From assembly GCA_029582165.1 (NCBI GenBank), contig CM055890.1, positions 5,827,787 to 5,891,786 of the forward strand: a stretch of DNA of 64,000 bases. The letters are read 5' to 3'. Positions 395-49,903 of this stretch are shown here, piece after piece (position 1 is the stretch's first letter; each line of letters starts with the position of its first letter). The translations under genes and the position numbers were made by a program. The DNA comes from Portulaca oleracea (lineage: Eukaryota; Streptophyta; Magnoliopsida; Caryophyllales; Portulacaceae). The notes below the pieces were generated by a model. That model was not told where the DNA came from. It made no database searches and saw nothing but the letters and a program-made list of their open reading frames with translations.

Positions 395-713
395 TGTTTA
401 GACCCAATTCTTTGTGTAAATACCGCCTAAATCCTTAGGCGTTAAACTCGTTTCGTGGTTTAATTTCATAAGTTTTTAATGCGTTTTGGTTATTTTTGTA
501 GATTTTGGAGTTTTCGCCGAAAACGTAGCAAAACGGGCCTCTTTATAGCATTTTTGGTGATTTCCCGAGCCGAGCCGGACCGGAAACCGAGGCGGAGTCG
601 ACCCGGGACCACACTCCCAACCTTTGGTGCCAATTAGTGAAGTAACTCGACCCTCGGATCGAGCGTTACATGCTTCGGAAAGAAGGAAGAAACAAAGGGA
701 CGAAAAGAGTAGG

Positions 714-993
714 GTAGCCCCCGCCACCCTGAGCGTAGCACCCGCTACCATAGGGGGTAGCGCCCGCCACCAGAGAGGTAGCACCCGCTACCTGTGCTCA
801 AAGTCAGCAGGGATTGTCATCTGAGGAAGGTAGCGCCGCATCGTATGGGTCGCGCCGCGACCTCGATCCCGAGTGAGACCGTGCCACGGTCTCCTGCCGC
901 ACTCCACGGTCTCTCGAAGCTCGAAATCGCCCGACCATTTTCGCTGGACAGAACATGACCGTGGCCACGGTCTCCTAGACCGTGACCATGGTC
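714..993 (+). promoter_or_regulatory. Array of 14-16-bp dyad words in the U3 of A, 21-bp phase
   Basis: Words of the type GTAGC-NCCC-GCTAC or GCCAC start at 714, 735, 757 and 778 (spacing 21, 22, 21). GACCGTGGCCACGGTC, a perfect 16-bp palindrome, is at 957, and GACCGTGACCATGGTC at 978 (spacing 21). The words between 830 and 890 are damaged by small deletions but are intact in the 3' LTR. The array ends 64 bp before the TATA-like box. The position fits an upstream promoter or enhancer element of the retrotransposon; that function is inference. Confidence 0.6.
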
Positions 994-1056
994 TCCCTAT
1001 GTCCTGCGCGTGTTTTCGGCTTGAAGTGCTGCGTTTTGCCCAATGTTTTTCACTTG

Positions 1057-1064
1057 TATTTATA
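1057..1064 (+). promoter_or_regulatory. TATA-like box of A 5' LTR
   Basis: TATTTATA lies in the middle of the LTR, just after the GC-rich dyad array and before an AT-rich R/U5-like half. The same box is at 10863-10870 in the 3' LTR. Confidence 0.55.
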
Positions 1065-2049
1065 TCCCTTGTGAACGATTTCTAAGGGGGAATATAGGGT
1101 TAGACTTAGACATTATTTTCAGGTTGTAATTAGTGGTTTTTAGAAGGAGATTAGTGAGAGATTAATCTAGGGTTTTGGAGATTTGTGTTTATTATTGAAG
1201 ATTTGGGTATCCAAACAATTGAAAGATTGTTGGATCATCTTTTTATTGCTTTCCTTGGTTCATCTACAACATTTTGATAAGTATTCTCTTCCCTTAACTC
1301 TTTTATTAATTACCTTGCTAATTACTTTGCTTATTCTTAATTGCTTTGCTTGCTATTTCATTGTTCTTGCTTGTTAATGGTTGTTTGATGTTAGAAATCA
1401 TGTTTAGGGTTGAATTGGATGTTGTTAGCATAGTTAGTGTTATGATTAGTGGCTAGAAACCCTATGGGTTAGGGGGTAATTAAGGGTGTGAATGGGTGAT
1501 TAGGTTTGGGTTAGCAATTTTAGTGAGTAATTAGTTGAGAAATCAACTTCCTAATCCTATCCTTCCCTCAAGTGGGATGTATTTGGGTGCGAAAGCATCC
1601 CGAATACATCCAACGCTTGTTGGAAGGTAGGAATTAGGATAGTTAATATTCTAGTTCGCGAAAGCGAATAGAAACTAACTAGGAAATTCCGTTCCTTGAA
1701 CTCCCCCGGGTCTGTCGATGGACTTTGGGGAAGTTAATCCGGACTATCCTTGAAAGAGGAAGCCCGGTGGGTATTTTCTAACGGAGTTACCATTTGATTT
1801 CCCCTTCTCGTTACTCTCTTGTTGCAAAACCCATTTCCTTATCCCCGTTTGCATCCCGAAAAGCCTCCGAAGCCCATTTTCCATTCCTTGACCGACCTTA
1901 GCTTTATTTCCTGCGTTGTGATCCTTCAAACCAGTATCCTTACCTTAGCAATCTCATCCCGACCGTTGACCTAGATTCTTTGACCAAGGCCGCCAGCTCC
2001 CTGAGAGAGAACGACAATACTGAGGTCTAACAAACCGCTGTACACAAAA

Positions 2050-5527: not shown

Positions 5528-5722
5528 GTAGCAGCTACGCGTCTGCAATGTTAAAAGGCGAGCACGAGCATCGCACCCGCGAGCCTGTTGGTAGCGCCCG
5601 CTGCCATCAATCACCAGCAGCCCACCGCAGCTGCGGTAGAAAGCACCGTGCCTACGGTGACACGAGCAGCGCCCGCGACAGTGTCGGTCGTGCCCGCGAC
5701 CTGACACTGCCAGCGGCTTAAT
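5528..5722 (+). promoter_or_regulatory. Internal dyad-word array upstream of the envelope-position ORF (A)
   Basis: The same word class as in the LTR: GTAGC-A-GCTAC at 5528, GTAGCGCCCGCTGC at 5591 (63 bp on), CACCGT-GCCT-ACGGTG at 5644-5659, GCAGCGCCCGCGAC at 5666 and GTCGTGCCCGCGAC at 5687 (21 bp on). Downstream come CCCTAAAATCCC and a long CT-rich leader-like run. Because the words otherwise sit in U3 promoters, this may be an internal promoter for the second ORF; that is inference. Confidence 0.45.
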
Positions 5723-6665: not shown

Positions 6666-8192
6666 ATGAGTGGAAGGAGCAAGCGTTCACGAGTCGAGGA
6701 AGCTTCTTCATCACAACCAGAACCATCCTATTCTGCAAAGGACCGTTACAAAGCGCAACCGGCCACACTAATTCGGTGTGAACCTGATGCGGATGTGACT
6801 TTCCGAGATGAAGAGCATAGACAACGGTACGAAGTGCTCCAAGCACGGAAAATATGTGCACCGGATATTTATGATGCGGCAACGATCGAAGCCATGCATT
6901 GCAAGCCAAGCTTCGATTATCTTATTCGTGTTCTTGGTTGGGAGGTATTCATCATGATCGATGAATCGATTGTGGACCAGCCCATCCTCGAGTTTTTAAG
7001 CTCCTTGAAAGTTTACGATGATGGCAAGAAAGATGCGCATTTTGAATACCGGGTCGCCAACAAAGATAAGAAGTGCACCTTGAAGCGTTTTTGCAGAAAG
7101 TTGGGGTTGCCCGAGGATGGGAGGTTTTATGAGCGATGTGCGAATTTTGATGAGCAGCAGGCAATGAAGGACTTGACCTATTGGAGGAGGATGAATCATG
7201 GCACGAGAAATGGACAACCACGCTATCATTGCTCCCGCAACTCTAAGGGGCGTGATTTTTGCAATCTAGTTGTTCGAATCTTCCATAGAATCGTGACTAG
7301 TTCAGTGTTTGGGAGAGATGATGGACGCCCCAAGGTTTGGAAAGATGATCTCTTTGTGATCTACAATGCAGTGAGGGGTAAAAAGGTAAACACCGGATCT
7401 TGCATTCTACATTGCCTTCGGGAGATTAGCATGGAACCCCGACCTACTACTATTGGGATGGGGCACATCATCTGCCAGTTCCTAGTTCAAGAGGGTTTCG
7501 GGAAATATTTGAAGAAGTGGACTCCACGCTATCATCCGGATCCTATCGACAAAATCCGGTTGCAGAAAATGAATATCCTCGCCAATCACCCAACTGCCAC
7601 GATCTATTGCCATGGGCATGACAACAAAACAGAGATTCTCTTGGATCCGGACTATGCTGAACAATCGTTGGATATCACTAAGGAACGCAACTGGTCTTGT
7701 GGTCAGGTTCCTAGTGTTCGCAAGGTGGGTGGTCCAGATGTGTCTAGTGGTGAAGAGGAGGACAATGAAGAGGAAGAAGAAGAAGAAGAAGAAGTAAATG
7801 AGGAAGAAGAAGAGGAGGATCCCAGCCATGGCGAAGCTAGTGGAAGTAGAAATCATCCATGGGACGCTTTGCTTGAGCATCTCAACTCTCAGTTTGATCA
7901 AATGAGGGTTGACATTCGAGAACAACGAACGCTACTCCAAGGTCAACATAATCCGCTAGAGTCCCAACAAGAGTTGCTACGTGCCCAGCAGTCTACGCTC
8001 AACAATATGCATGCACATCTTCAAAGGCACGAGGAGTACTCTCAGCAACAAAACCAGTATTGGCGTGACTGGGGGTATTATCACTACTCCATTGCAAACC
8101 ATCCCCCGGCACAACCAGAGTACATAAACCAGCACTACCCCACCTACTTTCCATATTATCCATATCCTCCCCCGGGAGGATCCGAGCAATAA
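6666..8192 (+). CDS. A envelope-position ORF (Athila ORF-1-type protein)
   Basis: Intact 508-aa ORF between protease and 3' LTR, where Athila elements carry an envelope-like gene. It begins MSGRSKRSRVEE, a basic nuclear-signal-like N-terminus. Residues ~50-330 form a globular region resembling the Athila ORF-1-type family found in many plant genomes (for example KRFCRKLGLPEDGRFYERC). Residues ~360-385 are a long Glu-rich run encoded by GAAGAA repeats. Next is a Gln-rich likely coiled coil (~400-460) and a Tyr/Pro-rich tail (YPYPPPGG). I see no convincing signal peptide or transmembrane segment, so an envelope role is doubtful despite the position. It is the only long intact ORF of A, although RT and integrase are gone. 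Start chosen at the first ATG after the splice-like acceptor; B agrees. Confidence 0.75.
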   Translation: MSGRSKRSRVEEASSSQPEPSYSAKDRYKAQPATLIRCEPDADVTFRDEEHRQRYEVLQARKICAPDIYDAATIEAMHCKPSFDYLIRVLGWEVFIMIDESIVDQPILEFLSSLKVYDDGKKDAHFEYRVANKDKKCTLKRFCRKLGLPEDGRFYERCANFDEQQAMKDLTYWRRMNHGTRNGQPRYHCSRNSKGRDFCNLVVRIFHRIVTSSVFGRDDGRPKVWKDDLFVIYNAVRGKKVNTGSCILHCLREISMEPRPTTIGMGHIICQFLVQEGFGKYLKKWTPRYHPDPIDKIRLQKMNILANHPTATIYCHGHDNKTEILLDPDYAEQSLDITKERNWSCGQVPSVRKVGGPDVSSGEEEDNEEEEEEEEEVNEEEEEEDPSHGEASGSRNHPWDALLEHLNSQFDQMRVDIREQRTLLQGQHNPLESQQELLRAQQSTLNNMHAHLQRHEEYSQQQNQYWRDWGYYHYSIANHPPAQPEYINQHYPTYFPYYPYPPPGGSEQ

Positions 8193-10207
8193 TCTGTAAG
8201 TGCCCCCACTCCCACTTTACTCTCTTCATTGATTTTATTTACACGGTTAATGTTAGATAAGTGTGGGGGGGTGCTTTATGGAAAAGTTGGGAGGTGTGTC
8301 GGTTAGTTGGTTTTGTTGAGTTCGTTGCCCCCATGGTTTGAGTTGTTTTGTTTTCATTGCTTCATCATTGGTTAGGCCGGTTATGAGAGTTGATTCACCC
8401 TCAATTCCCGCCTCAAACTAGTGAGATTCGGGGTTGAGGCTAGCTAGTGTCAATGTAAATACTGTGAATAGTTTGTCTTTTCTTTTGTTCTTTAGCTAGT
8501 GTCCTGTTTTTGTTTTTGTTCTTTTTTTTTCTTTATGCATGCGAACACTCACACTTATTATGTTTTTCTTGTTTATTCCTAACTCGAGTGTGATGTTTTC
8601 CTGGATCGCGGATTGGTTCGATATTTATTTGAAGACCCCGAGGTAACCTCTTTCCGCACTCTTTAAATGTATATATTGATCCTTGTTGCATGCTTGATTT
8701 TTCTTTTGGGTGGCGAGCCCCTTTGAGTGTTTGTGTTGGGATTATATTGCTGTTGGAGCCGTGTGGGCTCGGGTCGCCACCATTTGCTTGCTAGTTGTTT
8801 TGGTTGTTTGTCTTTGTAGGTTCTCTACCCCTTTTCTTGTGACACCTTCCCACAATGAGGACATTGTGGCGTTTTAAGAGTGGGGGGGGGGGAGATATTC
8901 TGTTTCAAGGGTAGATCACCTAGTAGTTTTGATCTTTGTTTTCTTAGTTTTTACTTAAAATTCGAAAAATTTTCGTGTGAAAAAGGAGGAAAAAGGGAGT
9001 GAAAAACCTTAAAAGTTTTTCTTTCAGTTTTGTTTTCGCTTTGTTTTTGCTTTGTTTCTTGGATCTTGTTGTCAAAATTGAGAAGCCGTTCTTATACTTC
9101 TTTAAAAGAAACCGGTCTGAGCATTTTCGACCCTGTCTCGGGTATGAGTCATGATTTATTACTTTAGATGTCCTTCATCAAGTGTCTAGTTAAAACCCCG
9201 ATTCCTTTCACGTTCTGGTTGAAGTCGGGAGATTCTAGGGGTTTGTGTCCGAGCTTGTTTTGCTTCTCTTTCTAGTAATGGCAAAGTCAAAAAGAAAGAA
9301 AAAGAAAGAAAAGCTACAATAACCGGATTAAGTGGAGCGTGTCGCTGAATGACATCAACCACAATACACTTAGCCAACCTACACAGGCCCGGTATTAGCG
9401 GTACGGCGCTATTACCCCTTAAGCTCCTCCCATATTGAATTCTCGGTGGAGGTGTGTATGGAAAAGACTGTGTTGGGAGGGTAAACCCCATATTTGGGCC
9501 GTCCAATTCCCGAAAGTAAGGCTAATACCGACCTATAAAAAGAAAAAGAAAAAAAAAAGAGAAAAAGAAAAAGCAATTTTGTTGGGATTACCCAACCCCA
9601 AAAAGAAAAGTTTGAGCGTTAATAAAGCGTGGGGCCTCTCCTTGCATCCTTGCATCATCTACGGCCCTCACCAAGCCAAGGGCGACCAAATGCGAGGAAG
9701 GGCAACACTTCTCTTGTTCGTTCCGTTGTTTTTGAGCTCGGGCATGAGTCCTTGGAGTCTTTTGGATTCAATTAGAACCCACTAGCACATACGCACATGG
9801 GGTTTTGCTTGACATTAGGTGTCGGACATCGAAAATCTCAAAGACTGACTTTTGCTTAAGATAGGTGTTTGTGAGACGCTCATAACGGTTCCTTTTGGAG
9901 GTTTAATAACGTTTTCCTAATTTAGGTTTCGAGATCTTTTGAAGCAAAGCTTTCGTTTTTCTTTTGTTTTTGTTTTTGTTTTCTTCTATTTTGTTTTCAC
10001 TTTCCCTCTCTCCTTTTTCTTTGGCTTTTGTGGGTATCGCCGCTACAAACCCTCACCAGTCCATCTCGTCCACCCGGGCTGCCAGGGGGTTCAAAGGGCT
10101 TGGTGCATACGCTCGTTTCCTCCCACGATAGAGGAGTTGGTATTTAGTTTTCTTATCTGTTTTGTTTTGTTTTGCTCGGGACGAGCAAAAGTTTAAGTGT
10201 GGGGGGG
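8193..10207 (+). other. A 3' untranslated module with repeated G-rich tracts
   Basis: About 2 kb without coding signal. Three G tracts occur: AAGTGTGGGGGGGTG at 8259, a longer one at 8876-8892, and the true polypurine tract at 10195-10207 touching the LTR. The stretch around 9340-9530 (CCCGGTATTAGCGGTACGGC and neighbours) and the end around GCTCGGGACGAGCAAA recur in B and, on the other strand, in E (57609-59000). This module therefore marks a family of elements probably served by one helper. Confidence 0.65.
10195..10207 (+). other. Polypurine tract of A
   Basis: AGTGTGGGGGGG directly abuts the TGTTTAGACC start of the 3' LTR. B has the same arrangement at 45980-45992. Confidence 0.8.
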
Positions 10208-11812
10208 TGTTTAGACCAAATTCTGTGTCTAAATACCGCCTAAATCCTTAGGCTTTAAACTCGTTTCGTGGTTTAATTTCATAAGTTTTTAATGAGTTTT
10301 GGTTATTTTTGTAGATTTAAGAGTTTTCGCCGAAAACGTAGCAAAACGGGCCTTTTTATAGCATTTTTGGTGATTTCCCGAACCGAGCCGGACCGGAAAC
10401 CGAGGCGGAGTCAACCCGGGACCACACTCCCAACCTTTGGTGCCAATTAGTGAAGTAACGCATGCTACGACCCTCAGATCGAGCGTTAGATGCTTCGGAA
10501 AGAAGGAAGAAACAAAGGGACGAAAAGAGTAGGGTAGCCCCCGCCACCCTGAGCGTAGCATTCGCTACCATAGGGGGTAGCGCCCGCCACCAGAGAGGTA
10601 GCACCCGCTACCTGTGCTCAAAGTCGGCAGGGATTGTCATCTGAGGAAGGTAGCGCCCGCTACCGTATGGGTTGCGCCCGCGACCTCCTGATCCCGAGTG
10701 AGACCGTGCCCACGGTCTCCCAGACCGTACCCACGGTCTCTCGAAGCTCGAAATCGACCGATCGTTTTCGCTGGACCGAACATGACCGTGGCCACGGTCT
10801 CCCTATGTCATGCGCGTGTTTTCGGCTTGAAGTGCTGCGTTTTGGCCAATGTTTTTCACTTGTATTTATATCCCTTGTGAACGATTTCTAAGGGGGAATC
10901 TAGGGTTAGACGTAGACATTATTTTCAGCTTGTAATTAGTGGTTTTTAGAGGGAGATTAGTGAGAGATTAATCTAGGGTTTTGGAGATTTATGTTTATTA
11001 TTGAAGATTTGGGTATCCAAACAATTGAAAGATTGTTGGATCATCTTTTTATTGCTTTCCTTGGTTCATCTACAGCATTTTGATAAGTATTCTCTGCCTT
11101 TAACTCTTTTATTAATTACCTTGCTAATTACTTTACTTGTTCTTAAATTGCTTTGCTTGCTATTTCATTGTTCTTGCTTGTTAATGGTTGGTTGATGTTA
11201 GAAATCATGTTTAGGGTTGGATTGGATGTTGTTAGCATAGTTAGTGTTATGATTAGTGGCTAGAAACCCTATGGGTTTGGGGTAATTAACGGTGTGAATG
11301 GGTGATTAGGTTTGGGTTAGCAATTTTAGTGAGTAATTAGTTGAGAAATCAACTTCCTAATCCTATCCTTCCCTCAAGTGGGATGTATTCGGGTGCGAAA
11401 GCATCCCGAATACATCTAACGCCTGTTGGAAGGTAGGAATTAGGATAGTTAGTATTCTAGTTCGCGAAAGCGAATAGAAACTAACTAGGAAATTCCGTTC
11501 CTTGAACTCCCCCGGGTCTGTCGATGGACTTTGGGGAAGTTAATCCGGACTATCCTTGAAAGAGGAAGCCCGGTGGGTATTTTCTAACGGAGTTACCATT
11601 TGATTTCCCCTTCTCGTTACTCTCTTGTTGCAAAACCCATTTCCTCATCCCCGTTTGCATCCCGAAAAGCCTCCGAAGCCCATTTTCCATTCCTTGACCG
11701 ACCTTAGCTTTGTTTCCTGCGTTGTGATCCTTTCAAACCAGTATCCTTACCTTAGCAATCTCATCCCGGCCGTTGACCTAGATTCTTTGACCAAGGCCGC
11801 CAGCTCCCTGAG
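10208..11812 (+). repeat. A 3' LTR, 3' end replaced by an inverted LTR piece
   Basis: Matches the 5' LTR from its first base to CAGCTCCCTGAG near 11811. The last ~50 bp of the LTR (to ACACA) are missing because sequence turns back into an inverted LTR copy. Dyad words here are the best preserved: starts at 10534, 10555, 10577, 10598, then 10650 and 10671, 10702 and 10723, and the perfect palindrome at 10784-10799. Within each sub-run spacing is 21-22 bp. TATA-like box at 10863-10870. Confidence 0.88.
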
Positions 11813-12323
11813 GGAGACCGTGGGCACGGTCTCACTCGGGATCAGGAGGTCGCGGGCGCGACCCATACGGTAGCGGGCGCTACCTTCCTCAGATGACAAT
11901 CCCTGCTGACTTTGAGCACAGGTAGCGGGTGCTACCTCTCTGGTGGCGGGCGCTACCCCCTATGGTAGCGGGTGCTACGCTCAGGGTGGCGGGGCTACCC
12001 TACTCTTTTCGTCCCTTTGTTTCTTCCTTCTTTCCGAAGCATGTAACGCTCGATCCGAGGGTCGTAGCATGCGTTACTTCACTAATTGGCACCAAAGGTT
12101 GGGAGTGTGGTCCCGGGTCGACTCCGCCTCGGTTTCCGGTCCAGCTCGGCTCGGGAAATCACCAAAAATGCTATAAAAGGCCCGTTTTGCTACATTTTCT
12201 GCGAAAACTCCAAAATCTACAAAAATAACTAAAACGCATTAAAAACTTATGAAATTAAACCACGAAACGAGTTTAAAGCCTAAGGATTTAGGCGGTATTT
12301 AGACACAGAATTGGGTCTAAACA
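11812..12323 (-). repeat. Inverted copy of the first ~510 bp of the A LTR
   Basis: Reverse complement of about 10208-10721, ending exactly at the LTR outer terminus (GGGTCTAAACA), followed by the TSD GTTTT. The junction lies in a short shared stretch, GGGAGA. It has its own few private changes but lacks the many private changes of the 3' LTR, so it is not a recent copy of that LTR. Right and left ends of the insertion are thus both U3 ends. Confidence 0.88.
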
Positions 12324-13399: not shown

Positions 13400-13764
13400 G
13401 AAATAAATAAAAGCTAAATATAAGAATTCAACATCCCCCTGTTGAATTCAAGAGAAGAATTCAACATATCCCCGTGCTGGATTCAGGAAAAGATTAACAT
13501 CCCCGTGCCTAATCAGTAAGAATTCATGTATTCAATATTCAATATCAATGTAATGTAATGTGTATCATAAAGGCTAACAAAGACCTTATTTATAGGTATA
13601 TAACTTGCCTAATACTAAACCTAATAGAAATAGGAAACTAAAATAATAATCCTAAACAATTAAGGAAACTATAACATTCCTAATGAGAATAGGAAACTAT
13701 ATAATAAAACCATAAATCTACTAAATATTATAATTCATAAATATATTAATATGTATTTCTATCA
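13387..13764 (-). repeat. O 5' LTR (378 bp)
   Basis: TGATAGAGAATG...ATTTCTATCA on the plus strand; the minus-strand 5' LTR by primer-site position. Right flank AATTG. Confidence 0.85.
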
Positions 13765-14400
13765 AATTGTCACACCAAGCCCACAAAGCAAGGAAAGAAT
13801 CAAGTAATTCTAACAAACACAACTCCAAATGACAAAATAAATCAAACAAACATAATAAATTTTACAAAATTAGTTGTCACACAAGCCCACAAAAAACTAG
13901 CCACAAAGCTCTACAAATCTGACAAACATAATGAATCAAATAAATAAGTAACTGTCACACAAACCCAATCAAGCTCTACAAATTAGTTGCCAGAGTTCAA
14001 AGAATACAGACAGAACCAAGATTTGTTTGGGAATTACAAACAGAATAAATATTATAAAACTAGAACGAACATTAAAACAAATCGAATGAACATCAGAACA
14101 TAGAAATGGCATACAACAAAAATTAATTTAAGAAAAATCGACTAACAGTTAGAAGAAAAATGCAGACATAAAAATTGGATAACAAAAAATAATTCAGATC
14201 TGAAATTACAATTGAAGGAAAAAAATGACAAATTTGAATACGTATTGAATAACTGACAAAGAAATATGAAAACAAAATCAAATCTTGGAAGGAGTAGAGG
14301 ACGATCGTCGTCGACCGAGCGTGAGTGTGTGGACCACCGACTGACGCAGGACGACGTGGCGTCGCGAGTTGCAGAGCCTAGAAAAGAAAGAAACACAATA
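13765..14400. other. AT-rich spacer, no gene seen
   Basis: TTGTCACAC-A-AGCCCA-like phrases recur at about 13768, 13874 and 13947, and a GC-rich patch lies at 14290-14370. No coding signal and no recognised element. It may be older host sequence or decayed repeat. Confidence 0.4.
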
Positions 14401-14622
14401 TGAAGACAGAAACCAGCTCGTTGAGCTGTAGGAAAAGCAAAGGAAAGAGGGGAGACACAATATGAAGAATGAATGTGTTTTCATTGATTGAAGAGAGAAA
14501 CAGGAAAGAGCTATATAAAGACATACACCAAGGAACAAAACAAGAAAAGAAAGAAAAGAAAAGAAAACTAACAAACTTAACAAACTGAACTACCATAATA
14601 AATAAAATATACATCCTTAACA
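14401..14622 (-). repeat. Copia 3' LTR
   Basis: Same length as the right LTR, six transitions apart. Preceded on the minus strand by a purine tract ending in a run of G (14623-14640). Confidence 0.92.
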
Positions 14623-14633
14623 CCCCCCCCCCC

Positions 14634-15170
14634 TCAAATTGGAGGTGGGTGAACCCCCAATTTGCTCATAAGAGTATTGTGCTGAAAACCAGACAAGGGC
14701 TTGGTAAGAATGTCTGCGAGCTGTAAATTGGTGGATGTATGCTCTAGGGAAATGAGACCATCTGCCAGCTTCTGTCTAACATAGTGACAATCTATCTCTA
14801 TGTGTTTAGTGTGTTCATGAAACACAGGATTCCTAGCTATGTATATAGCTGCTTGGTTATCACATTTGAAAGGAATAGGGTCAAGTTGCTCAACTTCAAG
14901 CTCATGGAATAAACGACTAAGCCAAGCTAATTCAGCAACCATACGTTTGAGGCTCCTGTACTCAGCTTCAGTAGAGGATAGAGAAACTATAGGTTGCTTT
15001 TTAGATTTCCAGGAGACCAGAGTTCTTCCAAGAAAGACCAAAAAGCCACTAATTGATCTTCTGGTGTGCTTGCAGGCTCCCCAGTCAGAGTCACTATAAG
15101 CTCTGAGGCTGAATTCTTCTTCTTTGTGAATCAAGATACCTAGATTAGGATGTCCTTGGAGGTATCTCAA
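14634..15170 (-). pseudogene. Copia RNase H domain
   Basis: Open 178-aa stretch ending close to the 3' LTR. Contains the copia RNase H signatures: SDSDWGACKHTRRS near residue 28, SLSSTEAEYRSL near 65 with the catalytic Glu, CDNQAAIYIARNPVFHEHTK near 105 and the closing ADILTKPL. It is the C-terminal part of the gag-pol polyprotein, cut from the RT domain by frameshifts and a stop near 15222. Confidence 0.9.
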
Positions 15171-15387
15171 AGTGTGAATGGATGCTTTCCAATGCTGGTC
15201 AGTAGGTTGCTTGAGAAACTAGCTAAGATGTTGGACAGTGAAAGCAAGATCAGGTCTTGTATTCACCAAGAAATTTAGCTTTCCAACCAACTTTCTATAG
15301 GTAGTGGGATCTTCCAAGGGCGTTCATGTGTCAGGAGAGAGCTTAACATTAATATCCATTGGGCAGACAACAGTTTTTGAATGTTTA

Positions 15388-15627
15388 TTAAGAAATTCTT
15401 GAAGAAGCTCTTTGACAAAATTCCCTTGGGATAAGATAACTCCCTGAGGTGTGTGTTATTTCTAGTCCAAGGAAGTAATGAGTTGTTCCCAAGTCTTTAA
15501 TTTTGAAGGCTTTGTCTAAGTCTTCTTTCAGATTGGCTATTTCTTGATGGTTGCTTCCTGTGACCGAAATATCATCAACATATACAGCTAGATACACATA
15601 TTTGTCAGTGTCCTTTTTGTAGAGCAA
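15388..15627 (-). pseudogene. Copia reverse transcriptase, YVDD segment
   Basis: 79-aa open piece containing the RT active-site motif YVDD (residues ~16-19) and the following GLEITHTSGSY. It lies between the upstream RT piece and RNase H but in another frame. The catalytic pair is kept while the frame is not. Confidence 0.88.
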
Positions 15628-15710
15628 TGAATAATCATTCTCAGAATGTCTACACCCTCTTTTGTATAAAACTTCAGTTATTTTGGCATACCATTGCCTA
15701 GAATATTGTT

Positions 15711-16091
15711 TCAGTCCATAAATGGATTTTTTTTTAATTTACAAACAGCATTAGGTAGGCTAGAAGAAACTCCCTTTGGTAGATGCATATAGATTTCCTC
15801 ATGTAGATCACCATGGAGAAAAGCATTATTTACATCCAACTGTTGAAGGCACCACCCTTTCTTTACTGCCACTGATATTAATGCTCTTATTGTGGTCATT
15901 TTAACCACTGGAGAAAAAGTCTCATTGTAGTCTATGCCAGCTTTCTGAGTGAATCCCTTTGCTACAAGTCTTGCTTTGTATCTTTCAATGTTACCATCTA
16001 ACTTCCTCTTGAGTTTATACACCCATCTGCAATCAATAGCCTTTTTTGCCCTTTGGTAAAGAAACAATTTCCCAAGTGTTTGTATCAGCAA
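15711..16091 (-). pseudogene. Copia reverse transcriptase, N-terminal segment
   Basis: 126-aa piece carrying the copia RT entry motifs: [39 protein letters not shown] and [13 protein letters not shown], the last containing the first catalytic Asp. The frame is lost at an A-run near 15725 before the YVDD piece. Confidence 0.9.
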
Positions 16092-16374
16092 GAGCTTGCA
16101 GCTCTTGTTTCATGGCTTTTCTCCATTCTTCATGGGAATTGGCTTCATCATAGGTGCCAGGCTCTCTTTCAAACAGACAGGAAACCTGTGCCTAAAAAAC
16201 ACTATGTTTAGGAAAGTTTCTAGGTTCACAGTACAAATTTGTGATGCTTGAAAAACATGTATCATAATCTTTTAGGTGGGAAGGTTGTCTGTGAGCCCTT
16301 GTTGATCTTCTGACAGGTTGTATTGTGGTCTTTGTACTATCAGGTTCTCTTTCTTCCTTATTACTACAAATGAC

Positions 16375-17022
16375 CTATGCATCTTCTCTACAAGACTCAT
16401 TAAGCTCAAGGTGTGTAGTCTTTTCTATGTCAGTGGTAGGTGCTTCATCTGAATGATCAACAAACTCAAAAATATGATTTGTGTCAATATACTCATGGGA
16501 ACTGTTCATAAGAGAATCTGAAATGAGTGATTTTTGTTCTTTAAAAGGAAAGATGCTTTCATGAAAGATGACATCCCTAGAATATAAGAATTTTTTAGTG
16601 GAAATGGAGTACAGTTTGTATGCTTTCTTGCCTTGAGGGTATCTAAGGAATATGCATTTTTCTGCTCTAGGTTGGAATTTATGCCATCCTTGTTTAAGTG
16701 TGCTCATATAACAGAGACAACCAAAAGACCTTAAATGGTCATATGTGGGGTGCTTCTTAAATAAGATCTCATATGGTGTTTTATTCCTCAAAATAGAACT
16801 TGGTAATCTATTTATGAGATAAGTTGCAGTTAATATGATGTCCCCCCAAAACCTTAAGGGTAGGTTTGATTGAAACATTAAGCTCCTAGCCACTTCAAGG
16901 ATGTGTTTGTGTTTTCTTTCAACTATTCCATTTTGTTGTGGCCTTTGGGTACAGCTAGTCTCATGTAGGATGCCTTTCTGTTTGAAATATGTCACAACCA
17001 TCTCATTTTTCCCAATCTCCAA
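16375..17022 (-). pseudogene. Copia integrase, C-terminal half
   Basis: 215-aa open piece with the integrase catalytic-Glu region ([20 protein letters not shown], residues ~27-46). After it come the copia-typical [17 protein letters not shown] and a C-terminal region. Separated from the first integrase half by a frameshift near 17030. Confidence 0.9.
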
Positions 17023-17044
17023 AGCATTATCTGACCTTATTCTC

Positions 17045-17596
17045 TTAACTGTTTAGGTTAAATTGAGTCTTGGCCATGCGGACAAAAGACTGAATTAAGC
17101 CAAAGGCTTCATTCTTAGTACTCATTAGGTGAGTCCAAGTGCACCTACTGAAATCATCTACTATGGTTAGAAAATACTTATGTCCAGAATGAGTTGGGAC
17201 ATAAAAAGGCCCCCATGTATCTATATGAATTAATTCAAAGGGAGAAACAGTAGAAATGTTGCTTGAATGAAAAGGTAGGCAATGCTGTTTTGATTTTGGA
17301 TAAACATCACAAACAACTTGACCTTGCAAGGAAATGTTAGGTATTAATCTCATTTTATTGAGAGGTATATGTCCCAACCGAGCATGCCATACATCATTTT
17401 TTACTGCAGCTAAAGCACTACTATTACTGAAAGAGGGATTGTCCTGAGTCTTTGTGGCATGTTTTATCATATTATCATCCAAGAAATATAAGCCATGGGC
17501 TTCTTTACCAAGAACCAAAGGCCCCTTCACAAGAAGGCCTTGCAAAACACAGAAAGTCTTAGTGAAAGTTATGTGACATTGCAATTCTTGGCACAA
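17045..17596 (-). pseudogene. Copia protease tail, pre-integrase and integrase core
   Basis: 183-aa piece. Contains the zinc-binding pre-integrase motif WHARLGHIPLNKM, in which the usual second Cys pair is damaged (CDVYPKSKQHC), and the first two catalytic-core motifs (IDTWGPF, IVDDFSRCTWTH). Just upstream, in another frame, is a typical protease C-terminal stretch (LNVLTLKNVLYVPFFTFN) but not the catalytic DSGA part, which seems deleted between gag and here. Confidence 0.87.
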
Positions 17597-17663
17597 TTTC
17601 TTACTGAAATAAGATTAAAAGTAAAAAATGGCACATATAATACATTTTTCAAAGTCAGGACAT

Positions 17664-18722
17664 TTAAAAAGTGTAATTCCCCTTTATGTGTAACCTTGAC
17701 TTTGTTTCCATTTTGTAGTGTAATCTCCTTGGTCTACCCTGTTGCTTTTGTTGTCTATTCTGGTTTCTTGGATGATTAGGAGGAAAGACATGAAGCATGT
17801 AACATTTGTCAATTGTGTGGCCATTCTTCTTGCAATGATCACAAAATAAGGCTTTCTTGGTCTCATTTCTTCCCCTTTCATTTGTTGTTCTTGAAGAAAC
17901 ATTCTGATCATTTCTAGAAGCATAGAAGGTGGCAGATTCAGACAAAAACTGTTTGTTGTCATGAACCTGCCTTTGTTTTTCTTCTTGACTAAGAATAGCA
18001 TAAACTTGACTGAGAGAGGGAAGGGGAGACATCATTAAGATATTCCCTCGGACTGCTGTATAACTGTTATTCAACCCCATCAAGAACTGAAGTAGTTTCT
18101 GCTCCTCAAAATATTTTTCAATCTTCTTGTTGATCCTTGGCTTACATGTGCATTTTCCACACTGGCATCTTGGGAAATCACTTACGGACCCAGCTTCTTC
18201 CCACAATTTCTTTGCCTTTGTAAAATAGGTAGTTATATCCAGAGAATCTTGGGAAAGCTTGGAGACTTCCTGTTGTATTAAATAAAGTTTAGCCTTATTA
18301 TTTTGGCCAAACCTTTCAGACAATTCATTCCATAAATCTTGTGCCAATGTGGAGTAGAGCACACTGTCTCTTATGTTCTTGGACAGTGAGTTCAGTATCC
18401 AAGATAAAACCATATCATTTCCTCTCTTCCAATATGGAAGAAGAGGTGAATCCTCATCTGGCCTTGGTAAATATCCATCCACAAATGCAATCTTGTACTT
18501 GGCAGATAAGGCAATTGTAGCAGACCTCTTCCAAATGTCAAACTCTTCCCCATTGAAAGGCTCCGGAACTAGAGAGAGGCCAGGTTGATAAGATGGATGG
18601 ATGTACAAGGGATCATAAGGATCAATAATGGGTAATCTGCTTAGTGGTTTTGGAGATGGGGTAGTTGGGTTCCCTCTTCTAAAGTTTCTGGGGTTCCAGA
18701 CATGGCTGAGGTGTAGGATCAA
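17664..18722 (-). pseudogene. Copia gag with CCHC zinc knuckle
   Basis: 352-aa open frame starting 15-20 nt downstream of the PBS. N-terminus has the DPYDPLYIHPSYQPG motif of plant copia gag proteins, then an FNGEEFDIWKRS region and a UBN2-like helical core. A CCHC knuckle CDHCKKNGHTIDKC (C-X2-C-X4-H-X4-C) is near residue 297. Translation then slides into another frame. An alternative start ATGTCTGG sits near 18706 in a different frame, suggesting a frameshift close to the N-terminus. The true start is uncertain. Confidence 0.85.
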
Positions 18723-18736
18723 AGGATGTCAAGCCT

Positions 18737-18748
18737 GCTCTGATACCA
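18737..18748 (-). other. Copia primer-binding site (initiator Met tRNA type)
   Basis: rc of GCTCTGATACCA is TGGTATCAGAGC, directly after the 5' LTR on the minus strand. Confidence 0.9.
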
Positions 18749-18970
18749 TGAAGACAGAAACCAACTCGTTAAGTTGTAGAAAAAGCAAAGGAAAGAGGGG
18801 AGACACAATATGAAGAATGAATGTGTTTTCATTGATTGAAAAGAGAAACAGGAAAGAGCTATATAAAGACATACACCAAGGAACAAAACAAGAAAAGAAA
18901 GAAAAGAAAAGAAAACTAACAAACTTAACAAACTGAACTACCATAATAAATAAAATATATATCCTTAACA
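18749..18970 (-). repeat. Copia 5' LTR
   Basis: 222 bp; minus strand starts TGTTAAGGAT. A TATATAAAG-like stretch (rc region near 18860) could serve as promoter. Confidence 0.92.
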
Positions 18971-19849: not shown

Positions 19850-21200
19850 AGTGTATCGTGATGGGAATATAATAAATTCATGCTTGAAGTTGATAATAAT
19901 AATGTGGTTCTTGATGAAATAATACATAATACCTTGATTGAAGAAGAGAGATTAAAAATCAACACCAAGAAAAGCACCAAAAGCTTGATCACCCAAGTAG
20001 ACTTGATATGTTATTGGATAAAGGAATTTCCACCACCAAGAACTAGCAATCCACCATGATTAGGTAAAGGAAAATCCGCCGTTAATTAATAAAGGAATGA
20101 CTTGTATCACCACCGTCAACTAATTAATGGATGAAGAACACGAGATTTTGGAGAGAGTTTTCAGTAGGTCTCAAAAATACCTTCTATTTCATTTAACTTA
20201 ACTAAATCTCCCTCTTTTCCAATTACCATATATAGGTAAGGATAGGGATTAAACCCCAAGAAAGATTTGCATTAAAAGGGTCATTAACTCATAAGTTAAT
20301 TACATTCCAAAGCCTAATCTAGCACAGCTGTACATTGGAAAAGAAAAGGCTTAAAACATAATTATATTGATTAGAAAAAAAATACAAAACTACTCTTAAT
20401 GAAGGAACAAGAAAATCCAGATCTATAGGGTTATCACGGGCGCGACACAGCACGTCGTGGTCGCGATGCGTTGTCTTGCACAAGGGATCATCACTCAGGC
20501 ATGGCCGTTACGGGTGCGACAAGGCGATGAGAGAAACCTCCCCAGAAGTTGGCTCACCATGTCACGGTCGCGACTCATGATGCGAGCGCGACGCCGTGAC
20601 ACGAGACCGATGTCACGGTAGTGACGTAGTTGTTTCGTCGTGAGGATCAGGGAGTCCCCAAAGTTTCGTGAGCGCGACCTTTTTGTTGCGAGCGTGTCGG
20701 TCCTCAGCCCCCACCCTCTCAAAAAAGTAGGCCAAGTCTCGGATGGGGCGTCGCGGTCGCAGCTGGGCCGCCACGAACATGACGTGTCGTGACCACAAAA
20801 CCCTTGAGCTGCCAGCCAAAACGTGGGGGTGGGGAAAATAGGAGTCGCGGTCGTGACCAGTGTAGTCGCACATGCGACGTCCCTATCTTCCCGCCAAAGA
20901 CGCCCACATAGACATGTCATGTTCGTGACACTGAACGTCACGGCCATGAGGACCCTGATGCACACTTTTCCTTGGCCTTCTTCAACCTTTACACCTCTTC
21001 TCCGGTTCCGCCCTCCTCGTTTGTGCCGATACGGGAAAAATGTCCCCTTTAGAGGTTATCAAAGCCCATTCATTGGATGACCTTGATCATCCGTCTCGGT
21101 CCCGGTCGATATAGAATTGGAGTTCTTCGGACGAGCGGGAAGTGACCCGTTTTGCCCAAGTTACAAGGGCCGAGAAGGGAACTCAGGACGCTTCAATCTC
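19850..21200 (-). repeat. LTR-like fragment D1 with dyad-word array
   Basis: Roughly 70 percent alike by eye to D2 (about 55600-56670) through TTCCACCACCAAG / AATCCACCATGATTAG-like phrases, then a GC-rich word array, then a shared GGGACCGAGAAGGGAACTC-type end. Words include ATCACGGGCGCGAC at 20433, GTCGTGGTCGCGAT at 20454 (21 bp on) and GTCAC-GGTA-GTGAC at 20612. Exact ends, partner LTR and TSD not found. The two fragments are too different to be one young LTR pair. Confidence 0.4.
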
Positions 21201-34015: not shown

Positions 34016-35182
34016 TGGAAAGCGGACGATGCGGAAGCCTAGGGTCTAAATAAACCATGTGGATGAAGGAAATCCACCCATAGAACTCATAAACACTATC
34101 AACCAATTTTTATGGGTTTTGGATTAATGGAGATAAACATAAAATTAGAAGATATGGACAATTCTAAAGAAATAAATCTCACCAAATTGAACTTAGATGT
34201 TCAAACACTTGCACAAGGATCTCCCACAAGCAAAGAGTATTGAATCACCCAAGAAATCTCACAAAGAGTGTAGGATAACCACCCACTCACAAAGAAGAGA
34301 ATTCACCAAGCAATTTTCACCCAAAGGATTAGCTTCATTGATTAGTGTTTGAAAACCCACAATTACAACACTCTCCAATTGAGAGGATTTTTCTTGAGTC
34401 TAGCTCCTAAACATTCATCAAAAAAATCTCTCTTGAAAAACAAGCTAAAGGGGTATTTATACTAAACAAGAAATTACGCCTAAAACTCAGCAAAAATGAA
34501 ACGGACATGCGCGTGTCGCAGGCCCGTCGCAGGCGCGACAGCCTCCTGACTCGGCAACCCATCGCCCAACCGTAGAGCGTAGTGGGTGCGACCGGTTATG
34601 TCGCGGGCGCGACGAAACCAACTCGAGCGCGACAACTTGCTGGGAGCGTGACTATACTATGGCCAGATGGTTGTCAGGGGCGTGACACCAGATGACTCAA
34701 GCGTGACGGTGTTCTGGGGCAGTTTTTCCCCACCTACTTCAAACGCGCATAACTTCTTCATCCGGGCTCCGTTTTAGGCCCGTAAGATATCGATGGAAAG
34801 CTCTCGGTGTGTACTTTAAGCTTCTAAAATTTGAGACCCATCAAAGTTGTAATGAAGGAGTTATGACCTAAATATTGAAGGCACGCCATTTGAACGTCTT
34901 TGAATTCATTCACTGCCATATGTTTATTCTTGCCGATGGTTCCGAAGCCCCTTAGAAGGCTCGGGAATGGTCCTATGGAGACCGTTGATAACATCCTACG
35001 GCCCGGGGTCTTTGTAGAATGAAACATCGCTCTCTTTGATGGCCATAACGACCCTCAAAGGACCCGTATCCACCATGAAATGGATATTGAAACTAGGTTA
35101 GTTTCGAGGAAAGGAGAGGGTGACTTGTAGCTCGCTGGGAACCGTAGGCGAAACAAAAATTGAACCGATCCCACACCGTTCA
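34016..35182 (-). repeat. C LTR 1 (1167 bp)
   Basis: Plus ends TGGAAAGCGGACG and CACACCGTTCA. Dyad-word array 34504-34707; TATA-like box rc of 34454-34461. Confidence 0.88.
34504..34707 (-). promoter_or_regulatory. Dyad-word array in C LTR U3
   Basis: Words of 14 bp: GTCGC-AGGC-GCGAC at 34526, a degenerate one at 34579, GTCGC-GGGC-GCGAC at 34600, then half-kept copies ending GAC at 34620, 34639, 34673 and 34694. Spacings include 21, 20, 19, 34 and 21. A GACAT-GCGC-GTGTC word at 34504 lies closest to the TATA-like box. The same array recurs at 50400-50600 and 53670-53890, with different mutations. Confidence 0.5.
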
Positions 35183-35886: not shown

Positions 35887-36794
35887 CTAAGGTCTACCAA
35901 GTAGTAAATGGCAAGCATCCATGGGGACAACATCACAAAGAACACTATCCTCATAAGGCCAAGTGGAGAAAGAAACCAAGACTTGTTGGGTTACCTCGAA
36001 GTCGCCGCCATCTTTTAGCCCTTGCAAGCTATACGGTTGAGGATGAGCCGAGACCAGCAATTGGAGTTTCTCAACCATGTATGTAGAGGCCAAGTTGGTG
36101 CAACTCCCACTGTCGATGATGACGTTGGCTACCTTCTCGCCGAAGGTGAACCGAGTTTGGAAGATATTCTCCCGTTGAGAGTTATCCCGGGAATCCTTGG
36201 TCAAGATAAAGGATCGCTTCGGAGTCGAACTCTCCCCTTCTTGCTTGCAAACCTCAACACTAGTCTTTGGAGCCTCCGGTGTGGCTACCTCACTTGCTTT
36301 GGAACTTTCACCCATCTTCATAGGGCATTGGGCTTGGTAATGACCATAAACCTGACATGTGAAGCATTTTCTACCCTCGAGCTTCCGGAGATATTCCGCA
36401 TTTTCCTTATGAGTTCGGGAAGATGGTTTGGATAGCTTAGAAGTTTGACTTCCTTTGGATGAAGTCTTACTCCAAGAGTGAGGACTTCCCTTCCTAGAAG
36501 GCATGAAGTAACCTTCTCCTCTATTCTCCTACCTTGAGAACCACCATGATGATAATCATCAAAATACCTCGAATAACCACTATGGTGAGTTCTAGGAGAC
36601 CGAGTTGAAATGTCACGATCCCTTTTCAATGACTCTAGTTGTGTAGGGGTCGTAGCGCGGAGTAAGTCACTCAATCGACGTTGCACTTCTAGAACATTCT
36701 CTTCGATACGTTGAAGAGTCTCCTCAAAGGTTGGTTTGGGTTTGGGGGAAAAAGGGACATCATATTTTCCCGAAGCATAGAACATGGAAGCCAT
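35887..36794 (-). pseudogene. C interior 1: gag-protease with 1-base deletion
   Basis: Starts at MASMFYASGKYD (ATG at 36794). Carries a CCHC knuckle CFTCQVYGHYQAQC and a protease with catalytic DSG (VIIDSGSCTNLAS), ending in LLLGRP before TAG at 35887. A single missing C in GAAGGC-ATG (near 36500; GAAGGCC in copy 3) shifts the frame between the gag N-terminus and the knuckle. Copy 2 shares this deletion. Length 908 against 909 bases in copy 3. Confidence 0.85.
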
Positions 36795-37148: not shown

Positions 37149-38752
37149 CCTAAATCCTTAGGCTTTTAACTCGTTTCATGGTTTAATTTCATAGTTTTTA
37201 ATGCGTTTTTGGTTATTTTGTAGATTTTGGAGCTTTCACCGAACACGTAGCAAAACGGGCCTTTTTATAGCATTCTTGGTGATTTCCCGAGCCGAGCCGG
37301 ACCGGACACCGAGGCGGAGTCGACCCGGGACCACACTCCCAACCTTTGGCGCCAATTAGTAAAGTAACGCATGCTACGACCCTCGGATCGAGCGTTACAT
37401 GCTTCGGAAAGAAGGAAGAACAAAGGGAAGGGAAGCCGAAGCGTAGCCCCCGCCACGAATGGCGTAGCACCCGTTACGCCCAGAGCGCGTTGGAAGCCGA
37501 GTGTGACCGTAGCCATGGTCATGGCTATTGTAGCCACGGTGGGCGTATGCAGAGGGTCAGGATGTCCGAGAAATACCGTACCCACAATCGGAGCTACCGT
37601 ACCCACGGTGCCGCGAAGGAAAGAATCGCCCAGCATTTTTCGCTGGTCGCGCCCGCAACGAGGGTGGTCGCGCCCGCGACCCCCCTACTGGGTTGCGTTT
37701 TTCGGCTTTCAAACGCTGCGTTTTGGCCAACTGCTGTGACTTGTTTAAATAGCTCTTTTGCTGCGATTTTTGGGGGAGTTCGATTGTTTTTTTAGGCATC
37801 TAAGGGAGATAGACTTAGATAATTTCCAACTTGTAATTAGGAGTTTTAGAGAGAGATTAGTGAGAGATTAATCTAGGGTTTTGGAGATTTGTGTTTGTTA
37901 TTGAAGATTTGGAGATTCAAACAATTGAAAGATTGTTGGGTCATCTTTTTATTGCTATCTCTTGTTCATCTACAGCACTTTGATAAGTTTTCTCTTCCCT
38001 TAACTCTTTTATTAATTACTTTGCTAATTACTTTGCTTGTTCTTTAATTGTTCTTGCTTGTTATTTGATTATCTTGCTTGTTTATGTTTGTTTGATGTTA
38101 GAAATCATGTTTAGGGTTGGTTTGGATGTTGTTAGCATAGTTAGTGTCATGATTAGTGGTTAGAAACCCTATGGGTTAGGGGGTAATTAAGGGTGTGAAT
38201 GGGTGATTAGGTTTGGGTTAGCAATATTAGTGAGTAACTAGTTAGGAAATCAATTTCCCAATCCTATCCTTCCCTCAAGTGGGATGTATTTGGGTGCGAA
38301 AGCATCCCGAATACATCCAACACTTGTTGGAAGGTAGGAATTAGGATAGTTAGTATTCTAGTTCGCGAAAGCGAATAGAAACTAACTAGGAAATTCCGTT
38401 CCTTGAACTCCCCCGGTCTGTCGATGGACTTTGGGGAAGTTAATCCGAACTATCCTTGAAAGAGGAAGCCCGGTGGGTATTTTCTAACGGAGTTACCATT
38501 TGATTTCCTCTTCTCGTTACTCTCTTGTTGCAAAACCCATTTTCTCATCCCCGTTTGCATCCCAAAAACCTCCGAAGCCCATTTTCCATTCCTTGACCGT
38601 CCTTAGCTTTGTTTTTTGCATTATGATCCCTTCAAACCGATATCCTTACCTTAGCAATCTCATCCTGACCATTGACTTAGTTTCTATGACAAGGTCGCCA
38701 GCTCCCTGAGAGAGAACGAAAAAACCGAGGTCCTACAAACCACGTTACAACA
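37149..38752 (+). repeat. B 5' LTR, first ~30 bp missing
   Basis: Matches 46024-47629; ends TTACAACA. Dyad words include GTCGCGCCCGCAAC at 37646 and GTCGCGCCCGCGAC at 37667 (21 bp apart), ending 64 bp before TTTAAATAG (37744). Confidence 0.9.
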
Positions 38753-38755
38753 AAA

Positions 38756-38773
38756 TGGCGCCGTTGCCGGGGA
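38756..38773 (+). other. B primer-binding site (Asp-tRNA type)
   Basis: TGGCGCCGTTGCCGGGGA, three bases after the LTR end, as in A. Confidence 0.88.
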
Positions 38774-41481: not shown

Positions 41482-41650
41482 GTAGCAGCCGCTACACTCA
41501 GTGTAGAACCCGCTACACTCAGCAACACAGCAACAGCAGAAGAGGTAGCAAGCGCTACCTTAGTCGTAGCAGCGACACGCAGAAAGCAACAAAGAATAAA
41601 GACCTCCACCAGCATCGCACCCTCGAGCCTGTCTGTAGCGCCCGCCATCG
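41482..41650 (+). promoter_or_regulatory. Internal dyad-word array upstream of the B envelope-position ORF
   Basis: GTAGC-AGCC-GCTAC at 41482, GTAGAACCCGCTAC at 41503 (21 bp on), GTAGC-AAGC-GCTAC at 41545 (42 bp on), GTCGT-AGCA-GCGAC at 41563, GTAGCGCCCGCC near 41635. Word sequences differ from A's internal array while the design and phase agree. Confidence 0.45.
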
Positions 41651-47629: not shown

Positions 47630-47796
47630 AGAATGAAACACTGCTCTCATTGATGGCCATAACGATCCTCAAAGGACCCGTATCCACCATGAAATGGATA
47701 TTGAAACCGGGTTAGTTTCAAGGAAAGGAGAGGGTGACTTGTAGCAAGCTGGGAACCGTAGGCGAAACGAAAATTGAACCGATCCCACATGGTTCA
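47630..47796 (-). repeat. C LTR remnant right of B
   Basis: Equals the U3 end of the C LTR (AGAATGAAAC...CATGGTTCA); the rest of this LTR is lost at the B insertion. Confidence 0.85.
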
Positions 47797-49408: not shown

Positions 49409-49903
49409 TTGTGGAGCTTGGTTTTCTTGTGGGGTGTATAATTTGAGCGGATGGAGGCTTGGGTTCTTTGTAGCTAGGAAATTTTGAGGGGGTTTTTGCG
49501 AGGCTAGTTTTGTGGAGGAAAATGGGGTAAACCCGGCAAGGGGAATGCACCAACAAGAACAAACCCAGATGGCCACACAACCATCACCAATAATATCAAC
49601 CAACAAAACAACCACCAACACAACAAATCCTCACAATCATTTCATCGAACACCTTTCGTGCACAATTTCCAACTTCACCACAAAGCTCCAATAATACTTC
49701 CAACCATTCAATAACAATCAAGAACAACTATCACACCCAACAACAATGGATGAACACAGGGAATGGGGGTACCCAAATTGCTCGACAATATCAACAACAC
49801 CAAGAACACCAAAAACCACCTCAAATTATCAACAAGACAATTCCAGGCACAAACAATAAATATTCAACAAACTATAAGTTCTATGCCTAGCTCTGATACC
49901 AAA

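Follow-up and report, generated by a model that had tools for sequence, protein, structure and literature searches.

The window, by which we mean the whole 64,000-nt stretch of Portulaca oleracea DNA that was analyzed, contains several long terminal repeat (LTR) retrotransposons, the principal parts of which are as follows.

395 to 2010, plus strand: 5′ LTR of element A, with its extent as matched by the 3′ copy in self-BLAST
6666 to 8192, plus strand: ORF3 of element A, 508 amino acids, weakly resembling Transposase_32 (PF20167) and ATHILA (PF03078)
10208 to 11817, plus strand: 3′ LTR of element A, stopping at 11817 against an inverted truncated LTR (12323 to 11812)
20.4 to 21.0 kb, minus strand: element E, unassigned
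about 37149 to 38757 and 45993 to 47631: LTRs of element B, a sister of A
54368 to 53180, 51063 to 49903, and 35182 to 34015, minus strand: LTRs of family D, with the primer site TGGTATCAGAGC

The two LTRs of A (395 to 2010 and 10208 to 11817) are 94.7% identical by self-BLAST. The full 5′ LTR probably ends near position 2048, just ahead of the primer binding site TGGCGCCGTTGCCGGGGA, which we take to be of the tRNA-Asp type. The gag of A matched PF03732 and not the copia gag models, its protease gave a weak match only, and the open frames scanned between 2253 and 10200 gave no match to a reverse transcriptase or integrase; a divergent relative matches positions 8463 to 10108 at 77 to 83%, though without a reverse transcriptase or integrase match in A. 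Element A may be nonautonomous, or its pol may be broken. ORF3 scored under the cut-offs for both of its families (27.1 bits against 45 for PF20167 and 20.0 against 20.2 for PF03078), and with the scanned frames matching neither a reverse transcriptase nor an integrase, A can be called no more than probably "Athila-like." A 240-amino-acid piece of ORF3 from B is 85% identical to the A protein over aligned positions. Outside the window, none of 2383 candidates was related to the A gag at E values up to 0.001. A pattern search of viral_contigs returned four stretches that fitted the pattern, none of them a relative, and a two-word 21-bp pattern had no match in that collection.

The A 3′ LTR ends where a truncated copy of a closely related LTR abuts it head to head in inverted orientation (11804 to 12323), and the junction point itself is a short palindrome, CTCCCTGAGGGAG (11804 to 11816). 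A 285-bp stretch to the left of A (1 to 284) recurs to its right (13480 to 13764) with 93% identity, and A may therefore be nested in an older repeat or sit between two copies of it. A compact element at 14400 to 18970 has direct repeats of 223 bp that are 97.3% identical, and its copia-type gag lies on the minus strand. The array-bearing region that we call C, on the minus strand, probably represents a 3′ LTR from an element related to A and B but more divergent; pieces of 57710 to 59354 match A and B at 75 to 83%. Family D differs from A and B in its primer site and had no BLAST match to either (E up to 1e-10, at least 60 bp), its zinc-knuckle and protease matches were near or under the cut-offs, and no ORF3-type match was found in its scanned open reading frames (35887 to 36504, 48501 to 49118, 48998 to 49618, and 51776 to 52897, all minus strand). 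At 47630 to 54368, family D is laid out as LTR, internal region, LTR, internal region, and the start of an LTR, with the middle LTR common to two units, and this block begins just where a B LTR ends.

Within the U3 of the A 3′ LTR, short palindromic words recur at regular distances. The features of this region, and their counterparts in the other copies of the LTR, are given below.

714 to 992, plus strand: array of the A 5′ LTR, with whole words at 714, 735, 757, and 778 and a TATA-like box at 1057
10534 to 10611, plus strand: first sub-run, GTAGC/N4/GCTAC or GCCAC at 10534, 10555, 10577, and 10598
10650 to 10684, plus strand: second group, a pair, GTAGC/GCCC/GCTAC (10650) and GTTGC/GCCC/GCGAC (10671)
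10703 to 10737, plus strand: third group, a pair, ACCGT/GCCC/ACGGT (10703) and ACCGT/ACCC/ACGGT (10724)
10784 to 10799, plus strand: last word, ACCGT/GGCC/ACGGT inside a perfect 16-bp palindrome
10863 to 10871, plus strand: TATA-like box TATTTATAT, a 6/7 fit to the pattern used, 78 bp past the last-word start
11817 to 11978, minus strand: six words of the inverted truncated LTR

A preliminary description had placed nine words in the 3′ LTR, at 10534, 10555, 10577, 10598, 10650, 10671, 10702, 10723, and 10784, with steps of 21 or 22 bp inside each sub-run and a perfect palindrome of 16 bp at the last. All nine starts were recovered where it had put them (the final three at 10702/3, 10723/4, and 10784/5), the palindrome, at 10784 to 10799, is indeed perfect over its 16 bp, and the steps within the three sub-runs are 21, 22, and 21 bp, 21 bp, and 21 bp. 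Shuffled controls also came out in its favor: 10534 to 10799 holds 8 dyad centers, against a shuffle mean of 1.77 (0/500 shuffles reach the observed count), and 7 pairs of dyads 21 to 22 bp apart, against a mean of 0.17 (0/1000). Perfect dyads show no excess in the rest of the A U3 (365/500 shuffles reach the observed number). Where that description had divided each word into arms of 5 to 7 nt and a short spacer, the palindromes are real, but the division hides a single shared form, a 5-nt arm, RCCC, and a complementary 5-nt arm. Centers other than RCCC occur in the first word of the 3′ array (CCCC), the second (ATTC), and the last (GGCC). The GTTGC arm at 10671 has GTCGC as its counterpart in the inverted copy (11849 to 11862). 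The whole cluster begins 326 bp into the LTR, with a GC content of 0.63 and a CpG observed/expected ratio of 1.03.

The same array was said to be repeated in the 5′ LTR at 714 to 993. This holds for the first four words, which are intact; the next four are damaged and the last is doubled. The doubled word (958, whole, and 979, with one mismatch) arises because the 5′ copy carries 21 bp absent from the 3′ copy, and arrays can accordingly gain or lose whole units. Between about 829 and 911, four consecutive words each lack at least one base, often in the C run or the right arm, damage that could be decay, hairpin-linked deletion, or an assembly consensus error.

Comparable arrays lie elsewhere in the window, in LTRs and, in A and B, also upstream of ORF3.

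5570 to 5700, plus strand: internal array of A, about 970 bp upstream of ORF3, with words at 5570, 5591, 5624, 5645, 5666, and 5687 (steps of 21, 33, 21, 21, and 21 bp)
20433 to 20857, minus strand: words of E, loose and without a strict RCCC word
34526 to 34686, minus strand: array of the D LTR 35182 to 34015, with a TATA at 34461, 78 bp away
37443 to 37680, plus strand: array of the first B LTR, with a TATA-like box at 37744, 77 bp past the last-word start at 37667
41482 to 41648, plus strand: internal array of B, about 1.1 kb upstream of ORF3, with words at 41482, 41503, 41545, 41614, and 41635
46318 to 46555, plus strand: array of the second B LTR, with step-21 pairs 46318/46339, 46381/46402, 46450/46471, and 46521/46542 (the imperfect words 46318 and 46402, outside the word rule, were placed by eye) and a TATA-like box at 46619
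50414 to 50574, minus strand: array of the D middle LTR (51063 to 49903), with the words GTCAC, GTCGC, and GTCGT with RCCC
53694 to 53800, minus strand: array of the D LTR 54368 to 53180 (D3), with weaker words and a TATA at 80 bp
56099 to 56272, minus strand: array of C, with TATAAATAC at 56036

In a shuffle test covering A, B, the internal arrays, and C, perfect dyads were in excess in the A 5′ LTR (8 against 1.91; 0/500), in both B LTRs (5 and 7 against 1.66 and 1.84; 10/500 and 2/500), and in the internal arrays of B (4 against 0.78; 5/500) and A (4 against 1.32; 23/500). No excess was seen in C (2 against 1.68; 260/500), and dyads were also mildly raised in R-U5 (12 against 5.9 in B, 14/500; 55/500 in A). 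D3 has gained, or D1 and D2 have lost, a word-bearing stretch. The only Rfam match in the window at gathering scores lies outside all arrays; it is a plant snoR71 match (41.7 bits; gathering score, 40) at 39337 to 39443 on the minus strand, within B and antisense to the gag ORF.

What these arrays have in common is the 14-bp word design. Among central 4-mers seen at least six times in eight arrays, arm complementarity peaks around ACCC (mean of 3.44 of 5 positions, n = 18) and GCCC (3.32, n = 28), compared with 2.25 for the next-best 4-mer and 1.37 over all positions. The eight arrays were drawn by hand (A3, the inverted copy, B3, the two internal arrays, C, D2, and E), with the duplicate LTRs A5, B5, D1, and D3 excluded. 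When the 46 RCCC tetramers were taken irrespective of their arms, 155/230 arm cells paired, against 101.8 (standard deviation, 6.8) when right arms were re-dealt (0/5000 reach the observed value); without the inverted copy the figures were 126/200 and 83.0 (0/5000), with arm position 5 the weakest (40/1000). Since words are copied whole, this excess reflects several arm types that are each complementary rather than many independent double changes. Four such types surround RCCC (GTAGC, GTCGC, ACCGT, and GTCAC), and a fifth, ACCGC, surrounds AGCT. With both strands counted, 36/100 RCCC tetramers inside 12 hand-drawn arrays qualify as words (at least 4 of the 5 arm positions paired), against 23/718 outside, and all 36 of these strict words point in the sense direction of their element, array E having none so strict. 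Looser centers admit some antisense words within arrays, for example at 37512 and 46387. Imperfect words of the form GTAGC..GCCAC are conserved across the A copies and in B. We know of no plant factor site that fits all arm types. A search of the literature for six of the 14-base words as text yielded no related paper; the single match was bacterial and unrelated.

Palindromes of this kind might act as DNA or as RNA. The preliminary description had offered a hairpin role in U3 RNA as one of two readings, and the words could form hairpins in U3-containing transcripts (the 3′ end of the element RNA, antisense transcripts, or read-in transcripts) that feed small RNAs or RNA structure. The sense RNA of the arrays does fold better than shuffled sequence, with z scores of -5.10 in A (0/200 shuffles), -3.06 in B (1/200), and -2.33 in the internal A array (3/200), and a role of this sort has been argued for the palindromes of maize Sireviruses, whose palindrome regions are reported to attract an excess of small RNAs (PMC10760457, PMC5311732). 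However, good folding is expected of any palindrome array, and mismatches that RNA would tolerate are not preferred: single mismatches in words comprise 12 G-T, 11 A-C, and 7 others (9, 7, and 7 among distinct words), near equality in a test of little power. Thus, no signal specific to RNA emerged, and the helical phasing and fixed TATA distance described below are features of a double helix. We regard a role as RNA hairpins as unlikely.

Spacing was first assessed as the number of 5-4-5 dyads with at least 4 of 5 pairs lying 21 to 22 bp apart, against 1000 shuffles. Beyond the A 3′ LTR, such pairs were in excess in A5 (4; 0/1000), B5 and B3 (2 each; 0.024 and 0.014), and the internal arrays of A (2; 0.017) and B (1; 0.046), while C (1; 155/1000), D2 (0; 1000/1000), and E (1; 281/1000) had no 21-bp excess of their own. 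Irrespective of spacing, the count of near-perfect dyads exceeded shuffles at the 0.05 level only in A3 (0.001), B5 (0.028), and B3 (0.039), and not in A5, either internal array, C, D2, or E. Words were then defined by arms and center only, and 34 steps of up to 80 bp were collected from seven arrays, with an E step of 232 bp omitted. Sixteen of the 34 steps are 20 to 22 bp. The other 18 (28, 32, 32, 32, 33, 42, 42, 50, 51, 52, 53, 54, 54, 61, 69, 69, 73, and 74 bp) gather at multiples of 10.5 bp, with a mean cosine of 0.52 (0.0001 against random steps of 23 to 80 bp), a Rayleigh value of about 0.007, and a best period of 10.45 (0.029 after a scan of periods 8 to 14), and the phase holds at 0.003 or better against random steps when any one array is dropped; these values are guides, since array borders were hand-drawn and the internal A and B arrays are partly homologous. 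The poor fits are 69 (twice), 28, 50, and 61, and an imperfect word divides the 69-bp step found in the B LTR. At the level of sequence, this residual phase supports the other reading offered earlier, in which the sites would be stacked on one face of the DNA. A common spacing plan of the U3 and internal arrays of B was considered and dropped, as 27/500 step-order permutations reached it and it appeared in 1/15 array pairs; five word starts there stand in exact register (41482 to 41635 versus 46318 to 46471) with different linkers, an agreement that is not significant.

The steps also bear on whether the arrays could be neutral, that is, a short tandem repeat spread by slippage and kept alike by turnover, with the palindromes as a by-product. 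Tandem Repeats Finder (TRF) reported a period of 21 in the A LTRs, the inverted copy, and the internal B array and a period of 32 in C, whose two 32-bp steps may merely be its own tandem unit, and the 21-bp unit that distinguishes the A 5′ and 3′ LTRs indicates that unit duplication or loss occurs. Yet 15 of the 18 non-21 steps, including 28 and both 69s, are nearest to odd multiples of 10.5 bp (3, 5, or 7 turns), and only the two 42s and the 61 are nearest to even ones; steps such as 32, 52 to 54, or 73 bp correspond to an odd number of half-units, which duplication of the 21-bp unit would not give. In 13 hand-listed pairs of neighboring units, identity was 0.82 in words but 0.41 in linkers, and the linker was as alike as the word in just two pairs (0.71 and 0.86). 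Several arm types surround one center, and neither B LTR array yielded a TRF repeat at score 50, nor did the first of them at score 30. Between A and B, the LTRs align well on both sides of the array, whereas inside it the alignment is partial and the order of word types differs. A simple satellite with mutations spread evenly over arms and spacers, which the preliminary description had named as an outcome contrary to its reading, is not what these arrays look like: words persist while linkers diverge, and the non-21 steps stay in phase. A neutral tandem-repeat origin is already weakened by these observations, and we consider it very unlikely.

The position of the arrays relative to the promoter is nearly constant. 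From the start of the last word to the TATA-like box, the distance is 78 bp in both A LTRs and 77 bp in both B LTRs; in family D it is 78 bp in D1 and D2 (in the middle LTR, from the start of word 50427 to 50414 to TATAAATAC at 50349) and 80 bp in D3. In C, the box lies 96 bp past the last good word, or 76 bp if a weak word is counted, and in E a distance of 78 to 80 bp applies to a weak word and a TATAAT-like box that is one of several AT-rich candidates there. In a MAFFT alignment, the final words of A, B, C, D, and E fall together in a single block. A, B, and C appear to have homologous core promoters, and D is the main independent case of the array position; because a single 64-kb window was analyzed, independent families are few. 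No TATA was noticed by eye near the internal arrays of A and B, and scanning the LTR for sigma-70 sites and terminators yielded no useful result.

The preliminary description knew of no LTR element of this form; in this it was mistaken. Repeated palindromic motifs have been described upstream of both TATA and ENV in the Ty1/copia Sireviruses. These are the RM boxes of Bousios et al. (2010), which, in the sections of that paper considered here, number at least 8 copies per element, lie for the most part in the upper LTR half, from 200 to 400 bp past the LTR start, are CpG-rich and shortly upstream of TATA, and have extra copies upstream of the env gene (PMC2829016). The same sections report them as Sirevirus-specific, with one consensus per element (Table 3) and a CGG-CCG core except in Tnd-1, and state that no common binding factor had been found for them by 2010 (PMC2829016). 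The arrays described here are similar in that the A 3′ LTR has nine palindromic words in a CpG-rich cluster in the upper LTR half, upstream of a TATA-like box, and extra arrays precede ORF3, the putative env counterpart (5570 to 5700 in A and 41482 to 41648 in B). They differ in having three arm types in the A 3′ LTR rather than one motif, and arms (GTAGC, GTCGC, GTCAC, and ACCGT) that flank RCCC without a CGG-CCG core, ACCGT..ACGGT having the reverse order, CCG-CGG. The A gag is of the Ty3 type (PF03732), unlike that of Sireviruses, and ORF3 is weakly Transposase_32/ATHILA-like. The 10.5-bp phasing and near-constant TATA distance are features of the present arrays; RM box spacing is not discussed in the parts of PMC2829016 considered. 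The arrays thus have the layout and position of RM boxes with different arms, core, and lineage.

The features that A can be compared on with the Athila lineage (Ty3) are its PF03732 gag, the weak protease, an ORF3 below the PF20167 and PF03078 cut-offs, a primer site that we take to be of the tRNA-Asp type, and a pol for which the scanned frames gave no reverse transcriptase or integrase match. Among U3 elements of another lineage, the BII boxes of Tnt1 are tandemly repeated upstream of TATA. In tobacco, these boxes of a Ty1/copia element are said to bind defense-induced factors (PMC3316501), and box I of Tnt1 is named as symmetric in the RM box paper (PMC2829016); they share the U3 location with the words described here, and their helical phase is not described in the portions of either source considered. 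Among the matches listed, judged by titles and the starts of abstracts, no description of LTR palindrome arrays in Athila or other elements was recognized beyond PMC2829016, and the portions of PMC11963269, PMC3212565, and PMC6911290 considered describe no such arrays. The general kind of element has been known since 2010 in another retrotransposon group, and this word design in these elements was not found in the literature searched.

The anti-silencing VANC proteins of VANDAL DNA transposons set a precedent for arrays of motifs that are read by a protein encoded in the element itself; in the sections of the reports considered, they contain DUF1985 and DUF287 domains and target the motif YAGTATTAY (PMC5735166, PMC10398659). 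As in the present arrays, VANC targets (those of VANC21 among them) are dense, short motifs in one orientation in noncoding DNA that are gained and lost as tandem repeats, but YAGTATTAY is not a spaced palindrome and its host is a DNA transposon (sections of PMC5735166). By analogy, a protein of the Athila-like element, such as ORF3, could bind both the U3 words and those preceding its own gene and keep the promoter open. The presence of arrays at both sites in A and B would fit such a scheme, as would the 85% identity between the ORF3 piece of B and that of A. No DUF1985 was detected in A, however, either in ORF3 (E up to 10) or in the other scanned ORFs (E up to 0.001 or 1); ORF3 matched no known DNA-binding family above the cut-off in Pfam (E up to 10), its sequence matched no PDB entry (E up to 1), and words are also present in family D, whose scanned ORFs have no ORF3-type match. 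We therefore think it quite unlikely that the element encodes the reader of its own words.

The explanation that we favor, with moderate confidence, treats the array as an enhancer-like cis-regulatory element in the upstream part of the LTR promoter, with its words bound on one face of the DNA by a dimeric factor. Each 14-bp word would be a site for such a factor, with one arm per subunit, and, words being mostly whole helical turns apart, the bound dimers would stack on one face. The array ends some 64 bp ahead of TATA in A, B, and D. The bound factor would activate transcription, and the further array that precedes ORF3 in both A and B may provide an internal promoter or coregulation of ORF3. 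We infer protein binding, the dimeric state, and activation from the sequence, in which the words are palindromic, frequently centered on RCCC, oriented in the sense direction, phased on the helix, placed ahead of TATA, and retained as linkers change. The asymmetric, one-way RCCC center is odd for a symmetric dimer.

A broader proposal, speculative and rather unlikely as it stands, is that separate plant LTR lineages share one code, consisting of arms free to change together, a preferred RCCC center, whole-turn spacing, and a last site that starts a near-constant 77 to 78 bp before TATA, and that one class of factor, of the host or of the Athila-like element, reads this geometry and not one sequence. 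If other LTR lineages of one genome reach this layout through a sequence code of their own, and with helical phasing, the layout itself would become a testable object. The phase, the center, and the TATA distance would give exact predictions for the binding factor and could separate a DNA-bound role from a small-RNA role.
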